From Candidatus Kaiserbacteria bacterium RIFCSPHIGHO2_01_FULL_53_31 (GTDB taxonomy: Bacteria; Patescibacteriota; Minisyncoccia; Phycocordibacterales; Phycocordibacteraceae), in NCBI GenBank assembly GCA_001781095.1, contig MFKU01000016.1:1-57212 (forward strand): a stretch of 57,212 nucleotides of DNA, written 5' to 3'. The notes below the pieces were generated by a model. It was not told the origin of the DNA. It did not search any database and saw only the letters and a program-made list of their open reading frames with translations. Positions 3,040-10,110 of the stretch are shown piece after piece. A program made the translations under genes and the position numbers. The stretch's first letter is position 1; the number at the start of each line of letters is the position of its first letter.

Positions 3040-3300
3040 TTAAAGTTCTGCGTATATTGCTACCTTGTTGTAATTGACTACGATGACGGCATTTTTATAT
3101 TTAAGCGTCTTATTTCCAGTCGTTGCAGTCCTTACAACGATGGGGGTATTTTTGATTATCGTCACAAAGTTCGCATGCTGGGGCAGAATGTCGAACTTTC
3201 CTGCGCTATTTTCTGATGAAACGCTTACGGCCTGCCCCTCCCAGAGACGTTCGTCCGGACTTATTACTCTAACAGTGAATTCCTTTGCCGATGTGCTCAT
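3040..3300 (-). CDS. atpC: F1-type ATPase epsilon subunit, short form (86 aa)
   Basis: [49 protein letters not shown]; matches the N-terminal beta-sandwich 'GxFDILPxHA'; no C-terminal helical hairpin; 4-nt overlap with beta. Confidence 0.82.
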
Positions 3301-4709
3301 ACGGGCCCGCTATCGCTTTTCTCAAGATCTTTGGTAGTGCCAATGTACATAAAGTTGTCTGCCGGGACAGAATCAAATTTCCCTGCCAATATAGCCTCAA
3401 CATCTGCAATCGACTCTGTACGCTTCACGTATGCGCCCGGTTTGCCCGTTTGATTCTCGAGCGTGAATAATTCTTGCGTCATATAGTTGCGCAGTTTGGA
3501 CGCGCGGTCGAATATCAGGCGATCTTGCGCGGACAATTCATCTTCTCCGATGATTGAGACGATACGCACGAGACGTTCATATTGATTCAGTATTTCTATC
3601 GCAGCGGTCAACACTCTGAAGTGCGGGTTGTCAGCGCTCGCGCGCAGAGTATCGAGAACGGATGATTTGGATTTAAGAAAGTCGATGGCCGGGAATCGAC
3701 CTTCTTGATGCATCTCCCGTGATAGCACGAGCGTCGCTTCGAAATACGGCAGTGCTGCAGCTACTGCTGGGTCTACGAGCTCGTCAGCAGGCACATAGAC
3801 GGTTTGTATGGAACTTATCGAATTGTCTTCAGTGCTGACCAGACGATTTTCGAATAACGCTATTTCTGATTGCAACGTTGATTGGTATCCAAACTCCGAC
3901 GGTATTTCTTCAAGCAGGGTTGAGAGTTCATTCCCTGCTTGCACGAAGCGGAATATATTGTCAGCAAAGAAGAGGACGTCGATCTTTTCCTCATCGCGAA
4001 AATACTCTGCCAACGTGACCGCAGCTGCACCAACCCGAAAGCGTACGGCGGCATTCTCGTTGATATGGGCGAGGATGAGCGCTGTCTTCGCAAGCGCACC
4101 GGTTGTCTGCAGCGAATCCCACAGCTCATACCCTTCGCGAATACGCTCGCCGATTCCGGCAAAAAGAGTTACACCAGGATGTGTTTGATTCAAATTATGA
4201 ATAATCTCGGTCATGACTGCGGTCTTCCCGACGCCGGCACCGCCGATAATGCCGAGACGCCCGCCTTCGACCATCGGTGCAAAGAAATCGATTATTTTTA
4301 TACCTGTCTCGAGTAATGAATGCTCCTGATTGACTTTGAGCGTCGTCTGGTGCGGCGTTCCATAAATCGAACGTGCGTCGGTGTATTCAAGCGTCTTGCC
4401 CCCATCAAGCGGCTGCCCGTAGAGATTAATGGCGCGGCCAAGCACTCCCTTCCCGACCGGTATGGAGAGCGTTGTTTCAAGAGCGATAATCCGCATGTTC
4501 CGAAACAGATCTTCCTTTGAGGACAACAACAGACAGTGAAGCAAATCGCGGCCATAGTATGAATGCACTTCCATGCGAATCTCGGGGATATCCTCCGCGG
4601 TAAGCAATTCGCGAAGTGCGGGACGATAGTCGCTCTCGCAATGCACCACGACCACTTGGCCGCGTACGGCGCGTACACTCCCGACAAAAGGTTTTGTTAT
4701 TTTTTCCAT
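3297..4709 (-). CDS. atpD: F1-type ATPase beta subunit
   Basis: GGAGVGKT P-loop, [37 protein letters not shown] (DELSEED variant). Confidence 0.95.
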
Positions 4710-5542
4710 TTTGAAATCATTGAGAACGATTCTAGGAGGCGCAAATCATTGAACGTCTCGATGCTCTGACGGATCGCGCGCCGCAAAACAACGATTTCTT
4801 CATCAGCGCGATCTTGTGCCCGATTCATCGAGAACAATCGCGATGCGGTCCTCGCAAGCTCCGACTCGAGCATGACGCGCTGAAAAAGCAGATACCGTAC
4901 GCGCGTCTCGAAGAATTCAAGAATCTTAGATAGTTCGGGTTCAAAAATATAATCAATCTCCATATTCTTCGTCATCGGCTCCCCCTGCGATGCATAGGTA
5001 ATATCCTGTGCGGCGACTTTTTGCGCGAACACGTTAACGAATGATGGATAAAAGGCTAGCACTTGTGTGTACGGTACGACGTTTTTGAGAAACTGTGCGA
5101 TTTCCTCTCTTGTCGGCTCATCGTTTTCAAAAGAATAATAGAGAGGAAGCTTCTCAAGGTCGGGATAATTTCCCATGAGCGTGCGCCCTACCTTCCCGAT
5201 TACCATGTAGTCGGATGTCGCTCCAGACCGCATGTGTTCGACAAACGTGCGGATGACTTCAGAATTCACGGCGCCATAGAAACGCATATTTGACGTGAAA
5301 GCAACCGATACGATTCGGACGACCTTCCCCGTCTTCTCGGGTAACTCGCCTCGCCCGGATGCCGTCAGCTTGATTGAGTGATAGAGGTACGCAATATCGT
5401 CATAAAACGATTTATTCTTCTCAAAAGCAGTGCGCAAGCGATTTATTTTCTCAGCGCTCAAATCGAAAAGTGCCGACGTAATAAACCGGATCGTCTTCAC
5501 GTCTTCCAGCTCCCTCCGTTGATTCGTTAGTGCGGTTGACAT
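4697..5542 (-). CDS. atpG: F1-type ATPase gamma subunit, divergent
   Basis: Position between alpha and beta; N-terminal coiled coil [24 protein letters not shown] and C-terminal [34 protein letters not shown]. Confidence 0.85.
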
Positions 5543-8242: not shown

Positions 8243-8250
8243 AGTAAGTG

Positions 8251-10110
8251 TTATAGCGGAAAAAAGAGGATTAAGAGCCCGAGAAACAAACCTGCAATGC
8301 TTACGAGGATGATAAGTACCGTATTCAATACCACCATCGATTGAATGGAAGCCTTCGCGAGCGGATTGCGTCCGATTGATACGATACTGTCCTTCAAGTT
8401 AGAACCGAAATTTCGAAATGCGATGAAAATCGTACCGAAGACGACCATCGCCGCAAGCAGATACTTGATAAGAACGGCGACGGGCGCGGTGATGCCAATG
8501 TCCTCCCCTACCGTGACCAGCTGCTCGGTCTCGGTTGCTGTTTCGTCTAAAACGGGTGGTCCCAGAGCGAGTTGCGCCCTGATAGAACCGGAGTCTTCTG
8601 CCAGCCCGCTTAATTCTTCCGTTGCGATGGTGCCGCTCGGGAAGGAATCAAGAGCAGTACCGATGACGAAAGAATCTGATGTGTCGGCTTTTTGGGCCTT
8701 GCCGGGAACAGCCGACGACGTGATGTAGTCACCTACGCTGATCGTCCCATTCGCATTTGTCACGTTCACCGTGACCGTGCCAGTGCTCACAACGGGGACG
8801 CCTCCAGGGTTCGTATCAAGAACGATCATAGGATCGGTCACGACCACACCGAGGACATTCGGATCGCCGGCCTCTTGCGCAAGCCGAAACGTCTGGGTCG
8901 TTTGATCAAACGACACGAGATCACCGGATAGGGCGGCGTCGTCGGAAATGATATACGTCTTGGCGATTGCGATCGTGTCAGGTTGCACTTTTGCAAGGAA
9001 AGCGGCACCAAGCTGGGAATCCGAAGAGGGTGCAGGCTCGGGCGGAGCAGAAGCTGTTTCAGCTACATCTATCTCTTGAGCAATTGCTGCCGCTACGGCA
9101 TCTGGAATTTCTTCTGTAGCGGGCAGAGGAATATCATTCGCAGTCGGTATGATGGCCGCTGCGAGCTGAGGCGAGGGTGCGCGCATCATCGCAGAGAGAT
9201 TCTCCTTGATTTCGAATGCAAGAGATCCTGCTGTTTGAATAGTTGCAAGATATTGTCCGAAAAGATCGTTTGACAGAGCCGTAAAATAACTCGCCGTAGA
9301 ATATTCGTATCCCCACACGGACGCTGCCATTGCCGGCGCAATGCGAGCAGGAATTGCTGTTGTCAGAGAAAAGAGCCGAGCTGCTGCGGCAGGAGAGCGC
9401 TCCGCAACACGGAAAAGGACTTCGCCAAGTCCGCCAACAGACAGCACAATTCTACGGGCCGTGTCGGGAGACGTGGTAACGAAACCATAGACGATCATCT
9501 CATACCCATCGATTATCGACCGCTTCGCATCGACGACCGTTAGCCCAATATCTGAGAGAGTCTTTGCAGCGCGCGCTGTCATTCTTTCGCCGTTATCAAT
9601 AATTCGTACACCATCAGTTACCGCGGCAAGCGACGTGAAATCGATCCTAGAAGCCAAGTAGGCTGTGCTACTTTGGATATATTCGCCGACTGCATATGGG
9701 AACGTATACGCGATCGCTTCAATGCGTGGGGTGAGTGACGAAAGTGATAAAGACTGCGCTGTCCAAAACGCGGATGCTACGACGAATAACGCTGCGACTA
9801 CTGCTAGCACCAAAGAGCTTGCGGTCGCCGGAAGTATGTCAGAAACCGATTCGCAGCGGGGCGATTCAAATGCACGTTCATATTCTTCCTTATATTTGCT
9901 TGCCCGTTCGCGCGCCTTCGCGTCTTTTCGCGCATTTTGATCTACAACGAACTGTTTGAGAGATTCTCTATCAATAAGAAGCACTCGCCCAGGTCGAGAC
10001 GCGCGAATTTCTCCGCGACGTGCGAGACGCGCAATATAGTCTGGCGTGTATCCATATAGTTTAGAAGCGTCTTTCGTCGATATAAGGGTGTCAAGATAAG
10101 GAGCAAGCAT
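8251..10110 (-). CDS. HTH-TM-surface domain protein with C-terminal c-subunit-like GRNP hairpin, first gene of the ATPase operon
   Basis: N-term ISTKDASKLYGYTPDYIARLARRGEIRASRPGRVLLIDRESL (excisionase-like HTH); TM; surface module GDLVSFDQTTQTFRLAQ...GVVVTDP...TVTVNVTNANGTISVGDYITSSAVPGKAQKA; C-term LIKYLLAAMVVFGTIFIAFRNFGSNLKDSIVSIGRNPLAKASIQSMVVLNTVLIILVSIAGLFLGLLILFFPL; 8 nt before atpF. Confidence 0.85.
   Translation of the reverse strand: MLAPYLDTLISTKDASKLYGYTPDYIARLARRGEIRASRPGRVLLIDRESLKQFVVDQNARKDAKARERASKYKEEYERAFESPRCESVSDILPATASSLVLAVVAALFVVASAFWTAQSLSLSSLTPRIEAIAYTFPYAVGEYIQSSTAYLASRIDFTSLAAVTDGVRIIDNGERMTARAAKTLSDIGLTVVDAKRSIIDGYEMIVYGFVTTSPDTARRIVLSVGGLGEVLFRVAERSPAAAARLFSLTTAIPARIAPAMAASVWGYEYSTASYFTALSNDLFGQYLATIQTAGSLAFEIKENLSAMMRAPSPQLAAAIIPTANDIPLPATEEIPDAVAAAIAQEIDVAETASAPPEPAPSSDSQLGAAFLAKVQPDTIAIAKTYIISDDAALSGDLVSFDQTTQTFRLAQEAGDPNVLGVVVTDPMIVLDTNPGGVPVVSTGTVTVNVTNANGTISVGDYITSSAVPGKAQKADTSDSFVIGTALDSFPSGTIATEELSGLAEDSGSIRAQLALGPPVLDETATETEQLVTVGEDIGITAPVAVLIKYLLAAMVVFGTIFIAFRNFGSNLKDSIVSIGRNPLAKASIQSMVVLNTVLIILVSIAGLFLGLLILFFPL

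Follow-up and report, generated by a model that had tools for sequence, protein, structure and literature searches.

Two uses of the F1 motor outside ATP synthesis are described in Mollicutes. The F1-like X0 ATPase co-purifies with a surface system that depends on it (PMC12994834), and its X0 proteins were reported to share no similarity with subunit a, b or c (PMC3369863). The Type 2 G1-ATPase of Mycoplasma mobile is an F1-type hexamer with a shortened alpha N-terminus, whose gamma subunit drives surface motility in gliding (PMC11864180). Here we analysed a contig of 57,212 nucleotides (MFKU01000016.1, hereafter the window) from the patescibacterium Candidatus Kaiserbacteria bacterium RIFCSPHIGHO2_01_FULL_53_31, which carries on its minus strand an F1 operon made up of a gene for a 619-amino-acid (aa) protein followed by b, delta, alpha, gamma, beta and epsilon. 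We believe, at a probability of roughly 0.6 that covers the inferred parts as well, that this operon encodes an ATP-hydrolysing, F1-driven surface machine, which is neither an ATP synthase nor an ion pump. The anatomy of the module is strong, and its output is what we infer from it. No description of a patescibacterial counterpart was found in the searchable literature, outside of which lie preprints and most subscription journals.

The closest functional analogue is the Type 3 F1-like X0 ATPase of Mollicutes (MSC_0618-0624, MIB-MIP; PMC3369863, PMC12994834). Both systems have alpha, beta, gamma and epsilon but no canonical Fo, adjoin surface proteins, occur in genome-reduced symbionts and often stand as a second F1 alongside a normal F1Fo. 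The Type 3 cluster has no recognised peripheral stalk, whereas the system described here keeps b, delta and a c-derived rotor. The parallel with Mollicutes drawn in a preliminary description of this DNA thus stands for an analogous F1 with a surface link, but the two systems are distinct. The G1-ATPase of M. mobile differs in that it has no reported c homologue, is arranged as a dimeric chain through GliD, and has no separate b and delta. With bacterial F1Fo ATP synthase our system shares the order b-delta-alpha-gamma-beta-epsilon, all F1 subunits and a c-homologous hairpin upstream of b; unlike it, our system has no a, its c has lost the carboxylate and gained an extracellular domain, and its beta falls outside the canonical clade. 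N-ATPase, the alternate F1Fo, is likewise an extra F-type operon of deep origin, but the N-ATPase operons that we opened have a and c and begin with beta-epsilon, and their beta subunits form a separate clade.

Gene content, distribution and phylogeny of the operon

Read downward from position 10110, the junctions of the operon are an 8-nucleotide (nt) gap, a 4-nt overlap, a 2-nt gap, and overlaps of 16, 13 and 4 nt, as confirmed by an open reading frame (ORF) check of the window. Gene order and tight spacing therefore agree with the preliminary description, the largest overlap being 16 nt and the distance before b 8 nt. Using Pfam, we found no match to subunit a (PF00119) or subunit c (PF00137) anywhere in the 667-kb, 94.9%-complete source genome, and alpha and beta form a single pair there with no second set. 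The absence of subunit a, claimed earlier from the window, thus extends to the whole genome, and no normal pair of a and c lies elsewhere in it. The b and delta of the window gave no confident Pfam match.

A set of 68 loci from the phylum (X-type loci) was analysed with one set of profiles, and subunit a occurred in none of them (0/68), while b was present in 61 and delta in 63. The window-type c-like surface protein was found in 58, so that its place beside b-delta-alpha-gamma-beta-epsilon is not the oddity of one genome. Of the other ten loci, four had a version fused to Ig or NHL domains, five were cut by contig ends, and in one (L172) none was found. Since the same gene set recurs in the 68 loci, the operon is not a product of chance; the module of c-like surface protein-b-delta-alpha-gamma-beta-epsilon without a is a phylum-wide system. 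A further locus of the phylum, L168, has neither a nor a recognisable c-like protein, and a 1286-aa ORF lies upstream.

A beta search of 106 genomes of the family gave a bimodal result, with 64-71% identity in ten genomes, including that of the window, versus about 41% for canonical F-type. Relatives found with a narrow gamma alignment were Candidatus Kaiserbacteria and other Parcubacteria/Paceibacterota, and searches with gamma profiles added 15 genomes with the system in the order and another 12 in the class. Across the phylum, roughly 70 of 380 genomes scored at least 126 bits with the gamma profile, a count taken from the match list, and the 30 loci opened from this phylum-wide set had no adjacent subunit a. 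A canonical subunit a is encoded elsewhere in 45 of 71 host genomes, and there is none in the remaining 26, four of which are single-contig genomes. This distribution argues that the system is neither a broken copy of a sole ATP synthase nor dependent on one. It also shows that the a gene of relatives, which could have counted against the proposal, reflects coexistence with an ordinary F1Fo.

The catalytic machinery is kept throughout, with the Walker-A Lys and catalytic Glu of beta invariant in 69/69 sequences and the Arg finger of alpha present in 68/68, which upholds the earlier view that the hexamer residues are intact. E. coli numbering leaves out the initiator Met, which puts the printed beta columns one residue too low. 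These data bear on the idea that the operon is a decaying remnant of an ATP synthase, from which the functions of a and c have been lost. The genomes are reduced, and many in the genus of the window have no F-ATPase at all, as may suit decay, but the idea is already contradicted by catalytic residues invariant in 69 loci, a gene order stable over a deep tree, coexistence with an intact F1Fo in 45 genomes, and the gain of new domains; we find it barely credible. Of the loci whose gamma seemed to contain in-frame stops, L171 and L180 were opened, and in both the stop is the ordinary gene end. In family f81, epsilon lies on the opposite strand, still near beta (L075:2656-2922, L076:10268-10528, L078:2375-2692).

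A 92-sequence beta tree separated all 69 X-type sequences by a 100/100 branch from canonical beta of the candidate phyla radiation (CPR), other bacterial F-type beta and N-ATPases, so the comparison called for earlier separates the system from both F-type and N-ATPase. When a Type 3 beta from Mollicutes (M. hyorhinis, L192) was added, it adjoined the X group from outside on a long branch, with support for the X group of 87/59. Family models gave a corresponding picture: beta of the window missed the NCBIfam atpD cut-off (436 vs 463 bits), scores with the N-ATPase models TIGR03305 and TIGR03324 also stayed below their cut-offs (402 vs 752 and 304 vs 750 bits), and scores with the Mollicutes alpha/beta models MSC_0618/0619 and MMOB1660/1670 were far below the NCBIfam cut-offs. 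"ATP synthase" calls made in CPR genomes from alpha and beta alone may thus be wrong.

The c-like hairpin of the 619-aa protein

The C-terminal stretch of about 75 residues (~545-619) of the 619-aa protein forms a two-helix hairpin around an IGRNP loop. We modelled residues 365-619 with AlphaFold2 (32-sequence alignment, mean predicted local distance difference test score, pLDDT, 84), and Foldseek matched the hairpin helices to many F-type c-ring subunits with a probability of about 1.00. The best c-ring matches had target-normalised template modelling scores of 0.73-0.85 and root-mean-square deviations of 1.5-2.3 A over ~70 residues, with E-values of 0.03 and above because the query was the whole two-domain model. 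With hhalign, 33 hairpins aligned to the canonical c of their family at 91% probability, gapless through the loop; for example, L100 reads KALEAIGRNPLA...FTIVI where canonical c reads RALEAIGRNPEA...FTEAL. In three bridging loci (L171, L173 and L180), PF00137 matched above its curated cut-off over the full hairpin length, and the hairpin there closes a Big_1/invasin-like surface protein of 670-820 aa that precedes the same F1 operon. On the 619-aa protein alone, the NCBIfam subunit C model gave residues 548-616 at E=7, and Pfam also missed the c homology. The lack of a PF00137 match in the genome of the window is explained by the divergence of the hairpin, and profile, structure and bridging loci were therefore needed.

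A two-helix hairpin with a polar RQP/RNP loop is a feature of the c-subunit family that these hairpins share, the RNP loop being present in 63/63. The ion-binding carboxylate falls in the column 20 residues past the loop Arg; this column is Glu in all nine canonical c subunits from the phylum (9/9) but acidic in none of the 63 hairpins, which have I, L, V, A, F, G or M; the residue of the window is Ile601 (codon 8308-8310). There is thus strong evidence that the hairpin is a divergent homologue of subunit c without the ion-binding carboxylate. The preliminary description had the ring genes swapped for a surface protein. A surface protein does occupy the slot of c, but it is no plain replacement, and the rotor, being a c homologue minus its Glu, has been modified rather than swapped out.

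Ion translocation by F-ATPases needs both subunit a and the carboxylate of c, and since neither is present here, ion translocation cannot be the output. For the system still to be an ion pump or synthase, another hairpin residue would have to be used with an unrecognised a encoded elsewhere. An a gene could sit in a gap of a 95% complete genome, and 45 host genomes do have one, but it never occurs at an X locus, 26 genomes have none, the Glu position is never acidic, and the scanned region of the second transmembrane (TM) helix has an acidic residue in just 2/63 hairpins (L038 and L164). We consider this explanation very improbable.

Ahead of the hairpin stands a beta-domain, which matched phage capsid decoration/stabilising proteins (Foldseek, best E 1e-5) and showed a weak Pfam match to XM1 gp53; in rotor proteins it is preceded by a signal peptide or TM segment. 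Two further kinds of c fusion, one with Big_1/invasin-like and one with NHL beta-propeller domains, are found in large surface proteins that end in a hairpin without Glu and lie before F1 operons without a (L171:6858-8900, L173:5999-8461, L180:2195-4216, L176:11658-13151). In L159, two separate c-like surface proteins (6324-7076 and 12537-13358) lie on either side of one F1 operon.

The giant surface protein, the stator and the proposed output

In Kaiserbacteria the motor operon is flanked by HTHup, a helix-turn-helix (HTH) membrane protein, and by a giant HTH-TM surface protein, near obgE and gatB. Motor-bearing members of other families have gatB-HTHup, then C-b-delta-alpha-gamma-beta-epsilon, and the giant where the contig continues; in loci of the order a giant surface gene follows epsilon. 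The first 300 residues of the 619-aa protein share homology with the head of the giants (about their first 430 residues), so that the protein is a fusion of the giant's head with the rotor, which are two genes in most relatives of the genus. Families f115 and f153 have HTH-rotor fusions too, and there epsilon is mostly followed within 1-47 nt by a large surface gene. Near L066, a surface protein carries Peptidase_S74, the intramolecular chaperone of tail-fibre proteins.

These heads raise the alternative of a DNA-linked membrane motor, for instance in chromosome anchoring or DNA uptake, with HTH as its central part. HTH_17 has three matches in the genome of the window, all on proteins of this locus, and the fusion of HTH with the rotor recurs in several families. 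Most relatives' rotor proteins have no HTH, however, the same heads are found on giants of motor-less genomes, and DNA-uptake genes were not seen among the flanking genes examined, a search that was not systematic. We therefore regard a DNA-linked motor as quite improbable, and of the earlier claim that HTH belongs to the system, the recurrence of fusions stands but HTH itself is a variable part.

For the surface machine that we favour, the module supplies a complete F1 (alpha3 beta3 gamma epsilon) with intact catalytic residues, a membrane-anchored stator pair of b and delta, and the c-homologous rotor subunit with its large extracellular domain. The c-like hairpins would build a membrane ring, gripped by the gamma/epsilon foot via the conserved RNP loop, and with b-delta as the stator, ATP hydrolysis would turn or torque the ring and so move the decoration-like domains outside the cell. 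In Kaiserbacteria, this motion may act on, or expose and release, the neighbouring giant HTH-TM surface fibre, a step that probably serves attachment to a host or surface. That F1 catalysis is retained along with gamma-epsilon, b, a full-length delta and a hairpin of c type speaks for torque generated by a rotor in the membrane against a stator, the extracellular domain probably being the part that is driven. Delta, folded with 29 relatives, reached a pLDDT of 94.6, and its leading PDB matches by Foldseek were almost all delta/OSCP chains of F-ATP synthases. Its identity rests on structure, as hhalign of window-type delta against one canonical CPR delta failed. Canonical CPR delta (L041-L046) has ~120-130 aa, and X-type delta ~180 aa with both OSCP domains.

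Several points weigh against this proposal. The giant does not need the motor, given that the pair HTHup-giant is free of it in 12/12 Kaiserbacteria relatives opened, in which gatB-HTHup-giant has nothing of the motor in between, and the giant gene is not consistently found in the most divergent loci. X-type alpha has lost most of its N-terminal H1 helix (median 15 vs 25-29 residues), which binds delta in normal enzymes; stator attachment must therefore differ, and torque transfer is uncertain. There is also no subunit a to hold b in the membrane. The notion that HTH-TM giants are exclusive to motor-bearing genomes was rejected, since motor-less relatives carry them. The obgE-gatB-HTHup-giant locus is conserved in these motor-less Kaiserbacteria (L195-L206), with obgE preceding gatB wherever the stretch reaches and giant open frames of up to 6358 aa (G021).

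How the motor would act is a further question. In a non-rotating version, as proposed for Mollicutes MIB-MIP, hydrolysis would cycle or release surface proteins via membrane hairpins without continuous rotation. The overall logic is shared with the F1-like X0 ATPase, which is co-purified with and needed by its surface system (PMC12994834), the alpha H1 helix is short as in the G1-ATPase (PMC11864180), and a giant surface partner is present; b, delta and a c-ring-type hairpin have nevertheless been kept, unlike in Mollicutes, and these parts suit torque between rotor and stator. We hold this version to be rather unlikely. We tentatively propose, at odds somewhat short of even, that ATP hydrolysis directly spins a carboxylate-less c-ring bearing surface domains, as a phylum-wide rotary organelle of Patescibacteria acting on host-contact fibres. 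If true, such a ring would add a third use of the F1 motor, and evolution would have converted an ion rotor to mechanical output, independently of the Mollicutes case or possibly as its sister. How Patescibacteria with their tiny genomes attach to hosts and exploit them has long been an open question, for which this system is a widespread candidate surface motor. It can be recognised by a gene signature: an RNP c-like hairpin minus Glu with a surface domain fused or linked to a signal peptide, then b-delta-alpha-gamma-beta-epsilon, and no a.

Feature coordinates and neighbouring genes

Table 1. Features of the motor locus in the window, with the evidence for each.
Feature	Coordinates	Strand	Evidence
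619-aa rotor/surface protein	8251..10110	-	ORF, Pfam (HTH_17), structure model
Domains of the 619-aa protein: HTH residues ~10-54, TM ~98-116, extracellular helical head to ~300, decoration-protein-like beta-domain ~380-520, c-subunit-like hairpin ~542-619, loop R581-N582-P583			
c-subunit-like TM hairpin	8251..8487	-	Foldseek to c-rings, hhalign to canonical c, Glu column
Extracellular beta-domain, phage capsid decoration/stabilising protein-like	8551..8973	-	Foldseek; weak Pfam match
Subunit b, stator: one N-terminal TM and long coiled coil	7547..8242	-	Position, architecture
Subunit delta (OSCP), full length, both domains	7002..7550	-	Predicted structure, Foldseek
Subunit alpha, Arg finger present, N-terminal H1 helix short	5527..6999	-	Pfam PF00006, residue check
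Subunit gamma, full length	4697..5542	-	Pfam PF00231
Subunit beta, intact Walker A and catalytic Glu	3297..4709	-	Pfam PF00006, residue check
Subunit epsilon, beta-sandwich domain only	3040..3300	-	Pfam PF02823
Giant HTH-TM surface protein, at least 899 aa, cut by contig start, downstream partner	1..2698	-	ORF, Pfam; equivalent position in related loci
HTHup, 274 aa, HTH and C-terminal TM, upstream partner	10420..11244	-	ORF, Pfam; syntenic obgE-gatB-HTHup in relatives

Elsewhere in the window, positions 17615-22172 and 39026-44978 hold cell-surface glycan genes, including a Wzy_C ligase, a glycosyltransferase, a CDP-glycerol glycerophosphotransferase and a PMT-like protein, and a TraD/TrwB-like type IV coupling ATPase is encoded at 52598-54589.

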